Below are positions 20,544 through 33,227 of a DNA stretch of 33,527 nt, piece by piece; the first letter of the stretch is position 1; each line of letters starts with the position of its first letter. Location: assembly GCA_902801755.1 (NCBI GenBank), contig CADCJM010000041.1:1-33527 (forward strand), written 5' to 3'. The notes beneath the pieces are model-generated. The model was not told the origin of the DNA. It was given only the letters and a program-made list of their open reading frames with translations, and searched no databases. Both the position numbers and the translations under genes were made by a program. Source of the stretch: Oscillospiraceae bacterium (GTDB lineage: Bacteria; Bacillota; Clostridia; Saccharofermentanales; Saccharofermentanaceae).

Positions 20544-21509
20544 ATGTCATTACTTAATCCCGAGAGAAAAGAATTTGTAAGTTCTATTGGAAAAGGTGTA
20601 AAGATCGCAGGATTCTTCTATCCGTCATCCGCTCCCGAGATAAAGGGTGTCGTCCAGATCTGCCACGGAATGGCAGAGTATCTGGAGCGCTATGAAGAGA
20701 TGATCTCCAGGTTCAATGAAGCAGGCTATCACGTCTGCGGAATGGACATGGCAGGCCACGGCCAGACTTATTATCTGAATAAAGATGCAGGTTTCCCCAA
20801 AGGGTATTTCGGCGGTATAAAGGATTCATGGAAAGCGATCCTCACGGATGAGATGGGCCTTCATGAATATGCGCAGGAGCGCTTTGGAAAAGAAGGCCTG
20901 AAGTATATCCTCTACGGACATTCGATGGGCTCATTTGTCGTAAGGTCCATCTTCTCCACGCCAAGATACAGCAGGCAGTTTGACGGCTTTGTATTCTCAT
21001 CCACAATGGGTCCCAACCCCGCTGTCGGAATGGGCAGATTCTTGGCAAGCTGTGCCTGCGTTTTCGGAGGCGCGAAAAAGAAAAACAAATTACTGAGCTA
21101 CATTGCTTTCGGATCTTATACGAAGAAGATCGACAAGCCCAGAACAAGCTACGACTGGCTCTCGACAGATGACAAGGAAGTTCAGAAATACATCGACGAT
21201 CCGATGTGCGGATTCTATTTCACCGGCGAAGGATTTAAGACGTTGTTCAGCCTCATAGCCTTCATGCAGAGCAAGGAAGCTTATGCGCTTATACCTGACC
21301 GTCCGTGTTTCTTCACATACGGCAGTGAAGACCCTGTAGGAAGCTACGGCACAGGCGTCGAAAAGGTAATTGCAAGGATGAAGGCAGCAGGCGCAAATCT
21401 TAAGTCAAAGAACTACGGCCCTTACCGTCACGAGATCCAGAATGAGCCCGTGAAGGAAGAGTACTTTAAAGATCTTATCGATTATTTTGATTCGGTGCCT
21501 TTAGCCTAA
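20544..21509 (+). CDS. Alpha/beta hydrolase, monoacylglycerol-lipase/lysophospholipase type
   Basis: This 321-residue cytoplasmic serine hydrolase is of the Hydrolase_4 type. The nucleophile is S127 in YGHSMGSF, the acid is probably in the YGSEDPVG loop, and the histidine is in GPYRHEIQNE near the C-terminus. The N-terminal block QICHGMAEYLERYEEMISRFNEAG is the family's oxyanion and cap-lead region (HGMxEHxxRY). Such enzymes hydrolyse monoacylglycerol or lysophospholipid; the exact substrate is not predictable. It follows the peptidase gene by 11 nt. Its last 9 nt overlap the 3' end of the convergent GH31-like gene and no terminator is visible between them. Confidence 0.85.
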   Translation: MSLLNPERKEFVSSIGKGVKIAGFFYPSSAPEIKGVVQICHGMAEYLERYEEMISRFNEAGYHVCGMDMAGHGQTYYLNKDAGFPKGYFGGIKDSWKAILTDEMGLHEYAQERFGKEGLKYILYGHSMGSFVVRSIFSTPRYSRQFDGFVFSSTMGPNPAVGMGRFLASCACVFGGAKKKNKLLSYIAFGSYTKKIDKPRTSYDWLSTDDKEVQKYIDDPMCGFYFTGEGFKTLFSLIAFMQSKEAYALIPDRPCFFTYGSEDPVGSYGTGVEKVIARMKAAGANLKSKNYGPYRHEIQNEPVKEEYFKDLIDYFDSVPLA

Positions 21510-23792
21510 GCTAATAACGAGCTCGTTGCTCAGGAACTCTATAGATGTACCGTAACTGAGCTTCTCAGGTACGGATTCCGAGAGACCTACGACATTAAAT
21601 ATTCCGGACAATACGAGATGCTTTGTGCCGCCCAGATTCTGGGTGCGTACTGTTATCTTGTTGCCGGATACTTCAGCAGTGATGATGCCTGAAGCTACTC
21701 CGCCGTCAGAAAAGACTTCGCAGGCAGCCTGAGTGCCCTGGCTTAAGCCGAAACATGTGAATGTGAGGTTGTCGAGAGAACCGATGCCGCTGTTGGAATC
21801 GGGTGTTCTTGTCGGAATGATGGAGTTCGGGCGCGCGAAAACAGGAGCCGAGAAGGGCGCTGTCTTGCGTGTGATATAACGGGGTCCCTGGATCTTCTCG
21901 TGAGTCATGAAATCAGTCCAGACACCGGAAGGAATATAGACTCTGACGTTGTCATTAGGATAGATAGCAGGTGCCACGAGAAGTGATGCGCCGAGCATAT
22001 ATTCCGTATCAAAATTCTCAGCTGTCGGGTCGCCCGCAAATTCCAGAGCCATCGCGCGGATAACGGGTGTGCCGTACTTAACGCTCTCGCAGAGACTGGA
22101 ATAGATATAAGGCGCTAGACCAGTCCTGATCGCAGTAAATGCCTTGATGGAATTTAAGGTCTTAACATTTTCGAGGAGCTTAAGAGAGCCCTTGAATCTT
22201 GAGTGCGGCGCATAAGCTGCAAAGCCTACATAGTGGTCGAAGAGCTTAGGGTCATTGAGCTCCTGCTCGGGGATATCGATATTGATCCCGCCAAAGCCCG
22301 TGAGACCGTAAGAAATGGCATTCTTTACCGCAGCGCCCAGGTCGGCATAGCTTGCCTTCAGCGTTGTGTAGATATTGCTGTAAGGAGACCTCTGGTCACC
22401 TGAACTGATCGAATCGGAAATGATGAACGAACCAAGGCGGCCGCGCTCTCTTGCCGATACGTCACTTAATGCAGTATTGAGAATGCTCGTGAAGTTCAAA
22501 AGATAATCTCTCTTGCCCGAAGCCTTCTCGAAAGCTTTAGTCATAGAGTATGTGTAGTTTGATTCGAAAACCGAGAAGCCCTGTCTTGCAAGTGCTGCGC
22601 ATGCATTAATGAACCAGCTTCTTGTCTCGGGAAGATTTAAGTCGAGCATGGCAACGCCGCCCTTTTCCGCATCGCAGAGAACTGCCCTGCCGTCGGGGAA
22701 GGAGACGAGGAGACCGGAGTCAAGGAGCTCGATATATTCAGGCGCTCTCTCAGAAACGAAAGGATTTACGGAAAGGCCTAATATGATGCCCATATCGGAT
22801 ATTGATTTTGCAAAGCCGACAGGATCCGGGAATCTTGCAGCATCGAATGTGAAGCCGTAAGGTGCATAGTCAGGACGCCATGAGTTGCCGATCCAGAGTT
22901 CCTTGATATTAACGCCTGCGCTCTTTGCGCTCTTAACAGCGTCAAGGATCTCCTGGGCTGTAAGCTTCTCGTCGTCATTTAAGGCAATGGAGATGCCGCC
23001 TGTCGCATATGTAAGAGCAGGGATCCTTCCGTTAAGCTGGCTGAAGACCTCTAAGATCTGCATAGGGGTATCGCCGGCGATGATGCTGTATTCGAGTTCC
23101 TCGCCTTCGACTTCGAAGCTTAATGTGCCACCGGATGAACCGGCATCGAAAGTAACAGGGCGGTTTGTATTTACGAAAAGACCATACTTGGAACCCGAGA
23201 GGATGAAAGGAATATGCTCGGCTCCGGCTCTGGAGTCTATAGTGTTGCACTTAACGATCTGTCCGTTACGAATTATGGAAGCGCCTGCGCCGCCAAGACC
23301 GTACAGGGATTCCTTGGGTTTAAGATCGATAGAAGCACCTAAGATCGCATTCTGAGAGAGTGTATAGTAGCTCTCTGAGCCTGAGTCAGTCTTATAGTAT
23401 ATCGGCATGTTTGCGTTCTGGTTCAGAAGCTCGGAACCGCAGTAGAAGAATCTGATATCAAAGACTTTCTTGCTGATCCTTGCTTCGAGATGTCCGCTCT
23501 TGAAAGTGAAATAATCACCGGTGTCTTCCAACGTGCCGAAGCTGGAGGGCTGGAGATCGATCACTGAATAGCCCTTTGTCCTGGGCTCTGCGTGATGGCT
23601 TAATACTCTTACTGAGATAATGTTATTTGCAGGGGAGAAAACTGATACCGTTATTCTTCCTTTCGCATCCTTGAAGCAGTCTTTACAACCCGTGAGCGTC
23701 TCGGAAAATGCCTGGCAGTCACATCCGATCCTCAGTGTGTTGTCCATGTAATAGACGGAATCGATCTGGTAAGGTTTTCTTGAAAAGAGCAT
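21501..23792 (-). CDS. GH31-family protein lacking catalytic residues (pseudo-glycosidase)
   Basis: The protein of 763 residues has the GH31 layout: N-terminal beta-sandwich, a (beta/alpha)8 barrel with the ELWIGNSWRPDYAPYGFTFD strand, and C-terminal beta domains with APVFARPNSIIPT. GH31 enzymes hydrolyse alpha-glucosides or alpha-xylosides with two Asp residues. Here the nucleophile motif KTDFGE is ESNYTY (N412 replaces the Asp), and the expected WxGDxxS acid/base segment is RSPYSNIYTTLK without the Asp. It is likely inactive on standard substrates, or uses a different mechanism. It has no export signal. I chose ATG 23792 with GGAGGG 5 nt before it; an in-frame ATG at 23849 is possible but lacks such a site. 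Its 3' end overlaps the hydrolase gene. It is divergent from cca. Confidence 0.85.
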   Translation of the reverse strand: MLFSRKPYQIDSVYYMDNTLRIGCDCQAFSETLTGCKDCFKDAKGRITVSVFSPANNIISVRVLSHHAEPRTKGYSVIDLQPSSFGTLEDTGDYFTFKSGHLEARISKKVFDIRFFYCGSELLNQNANMPIYYKTDSGSESYYTLSQNAILGASIDLKPKESLYGLGGAGASIIRNGQIVKCNTIDSRAGAEHIPFILSGSKYGLFVNTNRPVTFDAGSSGGTLSFEVEGEELEYSIIAGDTPMQILEVFSQLNGRIPALTYATGGISIALNDDEKLTAQEILDAVKSAKSAGVNIKELWIGNSWRPDYAPYGFTFDAARFPDPVGFAKSISDMGIILGLSVNPFVSERAPEYIELLDSGLLVSFPDGRAVLCDAEKGGVAMLDLNLPETRSWFINACAALARQGFSVFESNYTYSMTKAFEKASGKRDYLLNFTSILNTALSDVSARERGRLGSFIISDSISSGDQRSPYSNIYTTLKASYADLGAAVKNAISYGLTGFGGINIDIPEQELNDPKLFDHYVGFAAYAPHSRFKGSLKLLENVKTLNSIKAFTAIRTGLAPYIYSSLCESVKYGTPVIRAMALEFAGDPTAENFDTEYMLGASLLVAPAIYPNDNVRVYIPSGVWTDFMTHEKIQGPRYITRKTAPFSAPVFARPNSIIPTRTPDSNSGIGSLDNLTFTCFGLSQGTQAACEVFSDGGVASGIITAEVSGNKITVRTQNLGGTKHLVLSGIFNVVGLSESVPEKLSYGTSIEFLSNELVISLG

Positions 23793-23847
23793 ATTATCCC
23801 TCCATAAAAGCGCACATGTAAAGCTGGTTTGATTTACAAACAAATTC

Positions 23848-23853
23848 ATTATA
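23848..23853 (-). promoter_or_regulatory. -10 element of the GH31-like gene (minus strand)
   Basis: TATAAT on the minus strand, 55 nt before the chosen ATG. Transcription from it would not include the in-frame ATG at 23849, which supports the start at 23792. Confidence 0.5.
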
Positions 23854-23963: not shown

Positions 23964-25349
23964 ATGAATAATATTCCTTCTAAAGAGTACAGGATCCCCG
24001 GCTATGTCGGAGGGATACTTAAACTGATCGTTAAAGAAGGCTTTCAGGCCTATGTTGCCGGCGGTGCTGTACGCGACATCGTTCTGGGCAACGTGCCTCA
24101 CGATTACGATGTGGCGACTTCTGCAAAGCCGGAACAGACTATAGAGATATTCAGAAAAGCAGGGATCAATTTCTACGACAATGCAGCAAAGCACGGAACC
24201 GTTACGGCTGTGACGGACGAAGGCGATGTCGAAGTTACGACTTTCAGGGAAGACGGATCTTATTCTGACCTCAGAAGGCCGGACGAAGTTATTTTCAAGA
24301 CATCGATCGAAGAAGACGTCAGAAGAAGAGACTTTACTATAAATGCGATGTATATGGATGCTGACGGCAGTATCCACGACCCGGAAGGCGGCAGGGAAGA
24401 CTGCGCAAAGCATCTTATAAGAACCGTGGGAGATCCTGCGGCGCGCTTTGAGGAAGATGCATTAAGGATACTGCGTGGCATAAGGTTCTGCGCAAGGCTC
24501 GGATTTGAGATCGAAAAAGAGACTCTGCTTGCTATGGAGACTCACCGCGATGAATTAAAAAAGATCTCCGGCGAGAGGATCGCTTCAGAACTTATAGGAA
24601 TAGTAACAGGCAAATATGCGCCGCAGGCAATAAGGACAGGCTGGAAAGTATTGAGCGAGGTGATACCCGAGATCGCCGTTTGCCGAGGCTTTGACCAGAG
24701 ATCCGCATACCACGACAGGGATGTTTTAGAACATACTCTGGATGTGCTTTCAGAGATCCCTTATATAGAGGGGTTAGGAAGAGATTCCGAGCTTGCCATG
24801 GCAGCGCTTTTTCACGATCTCGGCAAACCTTTATGCTTCAAGCTTGATGAAGACGGAACAGGCCATATGAAGGGTCATCCTCTTGTAAGCATGGCTATAG
24901 CGGAGAGGGTCCTGACAGATCTTAAGTGTTCAAAACAGTTTATAAATAATGTATCTCTGCTTATAAAACTCCACGATACGTATCTTAAGCCGGACAGGAT
25001 TAGGGTCCACAAGTTCATGTGTGAGTATCCTTCGGACATTCTTAATAAACTGAAGATATTGCAGAGGGCGGACATCCTCGCGCATTCACCTCTGGGCCTG
25101 GAACGCATGACCCGTCTTGAAGAACTCAATAAGTTATCAGAAGAGCTGATTGCTTCAGGTGCGGTTTTCGATATTAAAGATCTCGAAATAGACGGCAAAG
25201 ACATCATTTCGCTGGGCGTAAAAGAGGGTCCGGAAATAGGCCTTATATTATCTCAGGTCTTTAACAGCTATCTTGAGGAAAAATGCCCTAATTCTAAGGA
25301 GTTTTTGATTATTGAGGCCAAAAAGCTGCTTTCGAAAAAATCAGTTTAA
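23964..25349 (+). CDS. cca: CCA-adding tRNA nucleotidyltransferase
   Basis: This class II nucleotidyltransferase adds or repairs the 3' CCA of tRNAs. The 461-residue protein has the head motif VAGGAVRDIVLG with DYDVAT (catalytic Asp pair, near residues 32-52), RRDFTINAMY, the FEEDALRILRGIRF block, and a central HD domain (YHDRDVLEHTLDVL, ALFHDLGKP). A C-terminal helical region completes it. The HD domain suggests added phosphohydrolase activity, as in E. coli-type enzymes, although the overall length fits Gram-positive forms. It could alternatively be a poly(A) polymerase; the two cannot be separated by motif alone. There is no ribosome site; translation probably starts at the 5' end of a leaderless mRNA. 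Confidence 0.9.
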   Translation: MNNIPSKEYRIPGYVGGILKLIVKEGFQAYVAGGAVRDIVLGNVPHDYDVATSAKPEQTIEIFRKAGINFYDNAAKHGTVTAVTDEGDVEVTTFREDGSYSDLRRPDEVIFKTSIEEDVRRRDFTINAMYMDADGSIHDPEGGREDCAKHLIRTVGDPAARFEEDALRILRGIRFCARLGFEIEKETLLAMETHRDELKKISGERIASELIGIVTGKYAPQAIRTGWKVLSEVIPEIAVCRGFDQRSAYHDRDVLEHTLDVLSEIPYIEGLGRDSELAMAALFHDLGKPLCFKLDEDGTGHMKGHPLVSMAIAERVLTDLKCSKQFINNVSLLIKLHDTYLKPDRIRVHKFMCEYPSDILNKLKILQRADILAHSPLGLERMTRLEELNKLSEELIASGAVFDIKDLEIDGKDIISLGVKEGPEIGLILSQVFNSYLEEKCPNSKEFLIIEAKKLLSKKSV

Positions 25350-25431: not shown

Positions 25432-25478
25432 TTAACTATCAGCGAAGGGAAAGCTTGATGCAAGGGAGTGTGATCTAT

Positions 25479-26249
25479 ATGAAAAAAATCCGTAACAGTA
25501 AGAGAGGCTTTACTCTCACCGAGATCATCGTAGTAGTAGCTATCATTGTAATTGTATCTGCGGCTGCCTTCGTTGGCATTGCTATCACGATCAACAATGC
25601 AAAAGCTAATTCAGCAAGAGTTGAAGCAAGACACGGCCAGGATTCGGACGGCAAGGAATTATTTGAAGCTGAAGCCTGGGACGCAGTCGATTCGTTAGCA
25701 AAGGGCGCTGCAAAATTCTTCGACGTAGCAACATACGATCCGGATACATCACCGAATGCAGTAGCAGTTGATGAAGAGACAATCAGCGGCGATCTTTCCG
25801 GCGAGAACGCAGGCGGTGGCGGCGGTGACACAAGTTCCGCAACACCTACAAAACCGGCATCTGCTACAAATACACCGGTACCGACAAGTACACCTGTTCC
25901 TACAACTCCGCCTGCGACAACAGCTCCCGGAGCACAGACAACGATCAGCGGAACGAATACAGTAACAAACATGGAAGGCGCAACTGCACCTGTGAATAAT
26001 TACTTAACCTGGGGCTCGCCTGTTATCGAGACAAGAGTATCGGTTCCTCAGAGTTCTAATTACAGCACAGTAACTATCGTCATTAAATATACGAGCCCTG
26101 TAGACAAGATTAACGACTATTGGAACGGCCAGTATTCTTTGGATTCTTCCAAAACGACAATGACGATTACAACAAAGCCGGGATCTGACTTCGGTATTCA
26201 GGCATATTCCGGCGGAAACGCAGAAGTTGTATCCATCATAGGATCATAA
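25479..26249 (+). CDS. Type IV prepilin-like protein with a Thr/Pro-rich stalk
   Basis: The N-terminus is a class III prepilin signal: a short basic leader, cleavage at G-F in KRGFTLTEIIVVV, and Glu at mature position 5, followed by a 20-residue hydrophobic helix. After a helical segment the protein has a GGGGG and Thr/Pro/Ala-rich stretch (about residues 115-165), then a strand-rich C-terminal domain of about 90 residues. Pilins polymerise after processing by prepilin peptidase. No assembly ATPase, platform or peptidase gene is in the window, so this may be a minor or orphan pilin. ATG 25479 is chosen for the usual short leader. An in-frame ATG at 25458 also has a possible ribosome site (GAAGGGA), so the start is uncertain. 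Confidence 0.75.
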   Translation: MKKIRNSKRGFTLTEIIVVVAIIVIVSAAAFVGIAITINNAKANSARVEARHGQDSDGKELFEAEAWDAVDSLAKGAAKFFDVATYDPDTSPNAVAVDEETISGDLSGENAGGGGGDTSSATPTKPASATNTPVPTSTPVPTTPPATTAPGAQTTISGTNTVTNMEGATAPVNNYLTWGSPVIETRVSVPQSSNYSTVTIVIKYTSPVDKINDYWNGQYSLDSSKTTMTITTKPGSDFGIQAYSGGNAEVVSIIGS

Positions 26250-31466: not shown

Positions 31467-31526
31467 AAGGCATATCATTTTTTGCGCGCGTTCTTTTTCG
31501 CGTGCAATTTTGCAGGAGAATCTAGT

Positions 31527-33227
31527 ATGAAGAGATGTCCGGTTTGCGGCGTAATGATGGGCGACAACGTTGCTCGTTGCTCAATGTGCAAATACGATTT
31601 CCAGAAGGCTTCACAGGGCAATAACGATGAGGCTGCGGCCGAAGCGAAGAAGATCCTTGACCAGAAGCAGGCTGAGAATATAGCCCGTGCAGAAGCTAAG
31701 CGTTCCGAAGAGGAGAAGAGGATCCTCGAGGCTTTGGATAAGCTCAAAGGCGATTATGCCAACATGCAGCAGCAGTTCGAAGCAGAGAGAGCCAAGCTCG
31801 ACAAAGAGTTCACAACATTCCAGAAGAAGAAACTCGCTGAGCAGGAAGCATTAGAGAAGTCCGTCGATACTATCCGTGATGAGGTTATCGAGGCACGTGA
31901 CAAGAGAGATGCTCTCCGCAAAGAATGCAATGAGATGATGGATCTGGCTAAGAAGAAGTCTCAGAAAGAACATGATGAGATGATCGAAGCGGCCAGAATA
32001 GAGCAGCAGAAGATCTACGAAGAGACACAGAAGCAGACCGAACAGCTCGCAGCCCAGGTTGAGAAAGAATATGCGGCAGCTCTTGCCCAGAGAGATGAAC
32101 TCATCGCTCAGGCAAAGGAAGTCCAGAACATGATGGACAATGCCGATAAGATCAAGGCTGAGAAGGAAAAAGAGATTAAGGCAGCTGAAGACAGGATCGT
32201 TAAGCTCGGCGAAGATTTTGAGAAGGAAAAGCTCAAGATCGCAGAAGAGAACAAGAAGATCGCTGAGAAGCAGGCTGCAGAAGTTCTCAAGATGAAGCAG
32301 GAAGCTGAGCGCGACAGAGATATTGCAAATGCCGAGAAGGAGAAGCTTATCGCTGAAGCACAGGCTGAGAGAGATAAGATCATTGCCCACCTCGAAGAGC
32401 GCAATAATCAGGCACAGGCTGAACTCGATGATATGACAGAGAAGGCCAAGGCCGTAATGGTCGAAGCAGAGGCTGCCATGACCAGAAGAGACCAGCTCAA
32501 TACTGAGATCGCAACCTTTGAAAAGGAAGTTGCCCAGCAGCGCAGGGACCTCGACGAGACAATGGAAGCATCCAGGAAAGAGCTCGAAGAGGCTGAAGAC
32601 AAGAAGGCTCAGGCAGAGAAGGAATACAGCGAATACAAGAAAGAATCCGCTGATATCCAGGATCAGATCAAGGGCCTCCAGGCTGAACTTAAGGAAGCTA
32701 AGGAGATCATTGCTGACTCCAAGAACGCTACAGTTCTTGCTGAGGCTGCAGCACAGGAGATCGTTCTCAATGCCGAGAAGCAGTCCGTATTCCTTAAGCA
32801 GGCTGCATTAAGCGAGAGCGAGAAGGGCAAGATGCTCGATCAGATCGAAGAATTAAAAGAACAGGTTAAGGAGAAAGAGATGGAGAAGGCTGAGCTTGAG
32901 AAGAAGCTTGCATCACTCGACGCAGCTGTTGCAGAGTTGGAAAAGAGAGTCAGATCAGGTGGCGGAGCCGGCACACCGATGGATTATTCCGTTGAGGTAG
33001 TTGAGCACAATAAGTCTTCGGAAGTAAACGTTGAAGCACTTACAAAGCTCCTTAAGAAGAAGTCTTCTGAAGGCTGGACACTGATCCACGTTGTAGACGA
33101 TGACGGCGGTAAGCTCATCTCTTCAATGGGCGGCGGTTCCGAAGCAGGCTTGTCCTCACTTTCCGGAAGCCCCTTCGCACAGAAGGAAGACAGACTGGTA
33201 CTTATCTTCGGCAAGCCGAGAGTATAA
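31527..33227 (+). CDS. Zinc-ribbon, long coiled-coil protein with a DUF4177-like C-terminal domain
   Basis: This soluble 566-residue protein starts with a zinc ribbon (C4, C7, C18, C21), continues in a very long charged coiled coil from about residue 35 to 480, and ends in a compact domain of about 75 residues. That domain (VEVVEHNKSSEVNVEALTKL, SSEGWTLIHVV, then LVLIFGKPR) has the pattern of DUF4177. The Ala/Glu/Lys-rich coil looks like SMC or DivIVA-type structural rods, but no known rod-protein motif is seen. CAGGAG lies before ATG 31527; an earlier in-frame ATG at 31482 has no ribosome site. It has its own promoter and terminator. I cannot assign a function; a scaffold or cell-structure role is a guess. 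Confidence 0.8.
   Translation: MKRCPVCGVMMGDNVARCSMCKYDFQKASQGNNDEAAAEAKKILDQKQAENIARAEAKRSEEEKRILEALDKLKGDYANMQQQFEAERAKLDKEFTTFQKKKLAEQEALEKSVDTIRDEVIEARDKRDALRKECNEMMDLAKKKSQKEHDEMIEAARIEQQKIYEETQKQTEQLAAQVEKEYAAALAQRDELIAQAKEVQNMMDNADKIKAEKEKEIKAAEDRIVKLGEDFEKEKLKIAEENKKIAEKQAAEVLKMKQEAERDRDIANAEKEKLIAEAQAERDKIIAHLEERNNQAQAELDDMTEKAKAVMVEAEAAMTRRDQLNTEIATFEKEVAQQRRDLDETMEASRKELEEAEDKKAQAEKEYSEYKKESADIQDQIKGLQAELKEAKEIIADSKNATVLAEAAAQEIVLNAEKQSVFLKQAALSESEKGKMLDQIEELKEQVKEKEMEKAELEKKLASLDAAVAELEKRVRSGGGAGTPMDYSVEVVEHNKSSEVNVEALTKLLKKKSSEGWTLIHVVDDDGGKLISSMGGGSEAGLSSLSGSPFAQKEDRLVLIFGKPRV

Follow-up and report, generated by a model that had tools for sequence, protein, structure and literature searches.

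A gene on the minus strand of the window, by which we mean the whole 33,527-nucleotide stretch analysed here, encodes a glycoside hydrolase family 31 (GH31) protein that descends from the YicI-type alpha-xylosidase kept by its bacterial family, and from which the acid/base residue, the subsite arginine, the subsite aspartate and the stacking tryptophans are gone. It combines the three marks of a glycoside hydrolase pseudoenzyme, namely lost catalytic residues, an open frame and purifying selection. The protein is probably a cytosolic, non-catalytic GH31 pseudoenzyme that is retained for binding or scaffolding; judged from its residues, it would no longer hydrolyse glycosides and would instead serve a binding or scaffold role in the cytoplasm. 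The features on which this reading is built are collected in Table 1.

Table 1. Coordinates of the GH31 gene, its domains, key residues and neighbours in the window (residues numbered on the 782-residue frame P0001)
Feature	Position	Strand	Remarks
GH31 gene (probable pseudoenzyme)	21501..23792	-	763 aa, ATG at 23792
Shine-Dalgarno GGAGGG	23798..23803	-	5 nt upstream of ATG 23792; read directly
TIM barrel, catalytically dismantled	22170..22997	-	P0001 residues 285-560
Trp319-Ile-Gly321	22887..22895	-	replaces YicI His304 and Asp306
Glu429	22563..22565	-	YicI Lys414; Glu in 56/56 of the clade, Lys in 20/20 active enzymes
Asn431 (412 from Met 23792)	22557..22559	-	nucleophile position, YicI Asp416
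Asp479	22413..22415	-	replaces YicI Arg466
NIYTTLK, acid/base segment without acid	22356..22376	-	YicI Asp482 opposite Thr495 or Thr496
Asn523-Ile-Asp525	22275..22283	-	YicI Ser509, Asp511; Asn523 and Asp525 invariant 56/56
His549, Arg551	22197..22205	-	invariant 56/56; conserved in active enzymes too
Proximal C-terminal domain	21810..22127	-	P0001 residues 575-680
Distal C-terminal beta domain	21504..21782	-	P0001 residues 690-782; most constrained part in the clade
Alpha/beta hydrolase (Hydrolase_4)	20544..21509	+	convergent neighbour; end overlaps GH31 gene by 9 bases
CCA-adding-type tRNA nucleotidyltransferase	23964..25349	+	divergent conserved neighbour

The gene, its fold and its active site

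The open frame of the gene spans 21501-23849 and gives the 782 residues of P0001, from which the numbering of the protein counted from Met 23792 differs by minus 19. The start at 23792, proposed by the first-pass annotation, is the better one; the 763-residue protein is the most likely product because GGAGGG precedes this ATG and the relatives diverge upstream of that Met, and translation of the longer frame up to 23849 as the GH31 product is unlikely. The "good promoter" of the same annotation did not hold up, since the scan returned one site against 1.1 expected in shuffled sequences, and that single site ends one base upstream of the start codon. N-terminal hydropathy fits the proposal that there is no signal peptide, and the protein is apparently cytosolic.

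That the protein is a full-length GH31 member with a barrel and C-terminal domains was borne out by Pfam, where the N-terminal (PF13802), barrel (PF01055) and C-terminal (PF21365) GH31 models scored 56.7, 76.6 and 76.4 bits, above their cut-offs of 27, 23.5 and 24.4. The structure prediction and comparison with YicI that the annotation had proposed, made at fold level, gave the same fold. The AlphaFold model has a pLDDT of 89.1 and a pTM of 0.90, and when it was compared with solved structures the closest fold was YicI 1we5 (Z 41.1, 720 residues, 2.5 A), the YicI matches ranging from Z 41.1 to 41.9 at 2.5-2.7 A over 720-728 residues. YicI was also the closest solved relative by sequence (phmmer, E about 1e-74). 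The protein shares its whole-length fold, domain layout and ancestry with the YicI-type alpha-xylosidases of E. coli and Klebsiella (1we5, 8t7z), at 25% identity over 720 residues. The NCBIfam model for the YicI alpha-xylosidase (NF007940) scored 334.7 bits, below its equivalog cut-off of 606, which leaves the protein outside that family. Fold searches with the distal C-terminal domain alone returned as top match the ordinary YicI C-terminal domain, and a second copy of this domain, sought in the window's genome as a clue to function, was not found there.

In YicI we take Asp416 to be the nucleophile and Asp482 the acid/base, and the sugar in the -1 subsite is presumably held by Asp306, Arg466, His540, Phe277 and Trp residues. 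In agreement with the first-pass annotation, the KTDFGE motif of YicI aligns with ESNYTY in the window protein and Asp482 lands on a Thr within NIYTTLK; phmmer, MAFFT (alignments including relatives) and hhalign (profile against profile) concur, and none of the three places Asp or Glu at both catalytic positions. According to the accessible parts of PMC8063059 and PMC9061262, GH31 enzymes use an Asp nucleophile together with an Asp acid/base, and the window protein, with Asn431 at the first position and no Asp general acid/base at the second, has neither residue of a GH31 retaining glycosidase. As compared with YicI, D306, K414, D416, R466, W479, D482 and H540 have all been replaced.

Distribution in the genus and its sister genera

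A protein search found some relative in 69 of 85 genomes of the window's genus. The gene itself was called present at 28% identity or more over a long match, the remaining matches being other GH31 proteins or fragments, and by this measure it occurs in 57 of the 85 genomes. Fifty-five of these 57 copies are unbroken, and the frame is broken in G064 and G073. Among well-assembled genomes (at least 90% complete, at most 5% contamination) it is carried by 36 of 46 and absent from 10 by hand count. The unbroken gene is also carried by two cultured isolates, AB4001 and YAD3003, which are recorded under titles free of any MAG mark.

The clade alignment comprised 56 copies, the split copy of G073 being excluded, with members down to 28% identity to the window protein. 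In YicI numbering, the acid/base column holds Asp or Glu in 0/56 copies, Arg466 and Asp306 are each retained in none and His540 in two. Position 416 is more variable (Asp 27, Asn 20, Gly 4, Ser 3, Ala 2), so the claim that both catalytic residues are lost stands for the window protein and fails for the clade, in which nearly half of the copies keep the nucleophile. Of the sugar-holding residues, Trp345 has mostly become Ser or Thr, Trp380 Asp or Glu and Trp479 Asn; Phe277 is replaced by Asp or Gly, and position 540 is variable. A search for conserved replacement residues in homologues, suggested by the annotation, was productive. Glu is found at position 414 (Glu429 of the window protein) in every copy, as is Asn523, and Asp525, Pro527, His549 and Arg551 are likewise invariant. 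At six positions the clade is fixed for one residue and the active enzymes for another; V302E, H304W, K414E, W479N and S509N sit on predicted barrel strands, and the sixth is K566R. A shifted acid/base was also considered, and an Asp or Glu does lie between YicI columns 479 and 486 in 34 of the 56 copies; the window protein has no acid there, so this is not a general replacement.

As a control, 391 evenly drawn genomes of the class were searched, and 64 rows from outside the clade were hit by its profile at E 1e-60. Forty of the 59 rows lying outside the order were examined, and all 40 have Asp at 306, 416, 482 and 511, Arg at 466 and His at 540. An acid at the acid/base column in 0/56 copies of the clade against 40/40 intact homologues outside the family shows that the catalytic loss goes beyond chance. 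Within the family, the genera g4 (three sequences at this position) and g3 (one) keep the catalytic residues intact. In g5, where 22 genomes have a match, all 13 homologues examined (L099-L109, L111, L112) keep Asp416 and carry Asn at 482, His at 466 and Asn at 511, a half-dismantled GH31. The two g2 sequences (L097, L098) retain Asp416 and Asp306 and have lost Arg466 and the acid/base Asp482, the latter being replaced by Arg or His. In L097 the GH31 gene adjoins a gene for an RsgI-like anti-sigma factor, as does the intact g4 gene in L094.

In a tree of 43 sequences, 19 intact and 24 degenerate rows were split with support 100/98, the degenerate ones forming one clade. The tree was rooted with the intact enzymes as ancestral, a rooting that rests on their wide distribution. 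A clade of g1 and g5 alone was not rejected (p-AU 0.43), and the branching among g1, g2 and g5 is unsettled. Read from their active-site residues, the sister genera form a ladder from g3 and g4, intact, through g5, which has the nucleophile and Asn for the acid/base, to the window's genus with its apparently rebuilt site. Four viral contigs (L164-L167) carry weak, distant GH31 relatives at 24-29% identity.

The only other PF01055 match in the window's genome (L093:2-1954) reads like a GH36-type alpha-galactosidase by sequence, so the pseudoenzyme seems to be the only GH31 protein in this 89% complete genome. Several genomes of the genus (L083-L087) have an intact YicI-type enzyme, some beside the pseudoenzyme, and these intact copies group in the tree with enzymes of other families, as though the genus had regained the lost activity from an outside source.

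Selective constraint and gene order

Nei-Gojobori omega ranged from 0.031 to 0.105 in 13 close pairs of the clade, which is strongly purifying and, with the unbroken copies, agrees with the view of the first-pass annotation that the gene is maintained. Constraint is distributed differently from that in active YicI-type enzymes. Identity of a domain relative to the whole protein was 0.94 for the barrel and 1.36 for the distal C-terminal domain in the clade (1404 pairs at 75% identity or less), against 1.32 and 0.39 in intact enzymes (61 pairs) and 0.92 and 0.90 in g5. The pN/pS values follow the same pattern, with 0.132 for the barrel and 0.093 for the distal C-terminal domain in the clade (15 close pairs), 0.072 and 0.316 in intact enzymes (4 close pairs) and 0.134 and 0.180 in g5 (4 close pairs). 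Twelve classical pocket positions were compared with random barrel positions: only 0.002 of random sets were equally conserved in intact enzymes, as against 0.19 in the clade, i.e. not above background, and 0.98 in g5, where the pocket is less conserved than random barrel positions. The order of constraint is therefore reversed: active enzymes are most constrained in the barrel and least in the distal C-terminal domain, and the clade is most constrained in the latter. With constraint shifted from the former active site to the tail domain, the pseudoenzyme probably binds or organises something rather than cutting sugar.

The gene order around the GH31 gene is conserved and supports orthology. 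The nucleotidyltransferase gene lies head to head with it, within 1.5 kb, in 41 of 47 clade loci examined and in 13 of 13 g5 loci; of the remaining six clade loci, two stop at the GH31 gene and four show no match in the available stretch. An iron-dependent alcohol dehydrogenase gene is found between the two in 12 of the 47 clade loci and in all 13 of g5. In g4 the nucleotidyltransferase is 4.2 kb from the gene in two of three cases, the third contig ending at the gene, and it was not seen near the GH31 gene in g2 or g3. The alpha/beta hydrolase adjoins the GH31 gene in 39 of 47 loci; as a dedicated partner it was rejected, because it is present in 77 of 85 genomes of the genus, many of them without the GH31 gene, so the adjacency is not exclusive. 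Elsewhere in the window, a prepilin-like gene with a threonine/proline-rich stretch (25455-26249) lies downstream of the tRNA nucleotidyltransferase gene, and a 581-residue frame at 31482-33227 on the plus strand has no Pfam match.

Possible roles of the protein and their meaning

Under the reading that we favour, the pseudoenzyme would probably self-assemble in a YicI-like manner, oligomerisation being taken over from YicI only, which is described as a hexamer in the accessible part of PMC9061262. The conserved C-terminal domains would contact a partner or further copies of the protein, and the refitted barrel core (Glu317, Trp319, Glu429, Asn492, Asn523, Asp525) may hold the fold or a small ligand without cleavage. 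Some observations sit uneasily with binding or scaffolding. A pure scaffold would not need the full invariance of Glu429, Asn523, Asp525, His549 and Arg551, the nucleophile Asp persists in 27 of the 56 copies, the gene is missing from ten well-assembled genomes, and the adjoining hydrolase occurs also where the GH31 gene is lacking. The invariant residues could also mean that the active site has been rebuilt, with Glu429 and either Asp525 or His549 forming a new catalytic set for a non-classical substrate. Glu429 lies two residues before the old nucleophile on the same strand, the five residues are kept despite identities down to 28%, and the five switched positions on predicted strands point the same way. 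We nevertheless think this unlikely, for constraint on the protein does not peak in the barrel, the classical pocket is conserved no better than background and the stacking Trp residues are lost; Asp525, His549 and Arg551 are kept in active enzymes as well and may thus be structural. The option still draws some weight from the few invariant residues at the core of the barrel, and a barrel rebuilt round Glu429 with Trp319, Asn492, Asn523 and Asp525 for a reaction or small-ligand sensing new to GH31 would be an improbable outcome by our estimate.

Pseudoglycosidases are known in several GH families. It is quite unlikely that the protein is a lectin-like one that still binds the old alpha-xyloside or alpha-glucoside uncut, as inactive GH10 and GH18 proteins do. 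The GH fold is retained, and there is a precedent in BACOVA_03431, an inactive GH10 protein that binds xylan and, like the chitin-binding GH18 lectins, has a GH fold without catalytic residues (PMC4491172, accessible part). Those proteins bind their old substrate, the GH10 one at the cell surface, whereas the window protein has a dismantled subsite and is apparently cytosolic, without an apparent signal peptide. The stacking Trp and most other subsite residues are replaced (W345, W380, W479 and F277, with position 540 variable), and with the sugar-holding residues gone, the old substrate is less likely to be bound. The idea that the gene is a decaying pseudogene or an artefact of assembly, to which the two broken copies might point, has next to no chance, being refuted by the unbroken copies, the low omega, the conserved gene order and the presence of the gene in isolate genomes besides metagenome bins. 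As to another GH31 mechanism, GH31 glucan lyases keep the catalytic pair as well. The unconserved nucleophile and the lost acid/base led us to reject a lyase or transferase mechanism as a general reading. GH31 transferases keep the Asp nucleophile; the transglucosylase cjAgd31B, which has the GH31 fold in common (Z 32), uses Asp according to a PDB title ("D412N nucleophile mutant cjAgd31B"), and the window protein has Asn there and no acid/base. Of what the first-pass annotation had offered on function, the preference for a binding or regulatory protein over an enzyme is thus supported, another GH31 mechanism is not supported, and sugar binding in the old subsite is weakened.

We found no described GH31 pseudoenzyme when we searched a literature collection with few subscription papers for GH31 cases; among papers on glycoside hydrolase pseudoenzymes generally, no title or abstract opening named GH31, and the accessible part of PMC3981738 holds nothing on inactive GH31. 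The accessible part of PMC8063059 notes from sequence that some alpha-amylases of Lutzomyia longipalpis lack nucleophile and acid/base, and that a GH31 member has Glu as nucleophile. Those acid-less cases belong to GH13, not GH31, and in the GH31 member, despite its altered nucleophile, both positions are still acidic.

Automatic annotation may label dozens of rumen genomes as producers of alpha-xylosidase or alpha-glucosidase by way of this gene. If the active site proved to be rebuilt, g5, in which the nucleophile is Asp and the acid/base has become Asn, would represent an intermediate that has survived, and the route could be traced stepwise. Since the finished pseudoenzyme can be set beside relatives that are intact and a sister genus in which the site is half dismantled, the path from enzyme to non-enzyme becomes testable.
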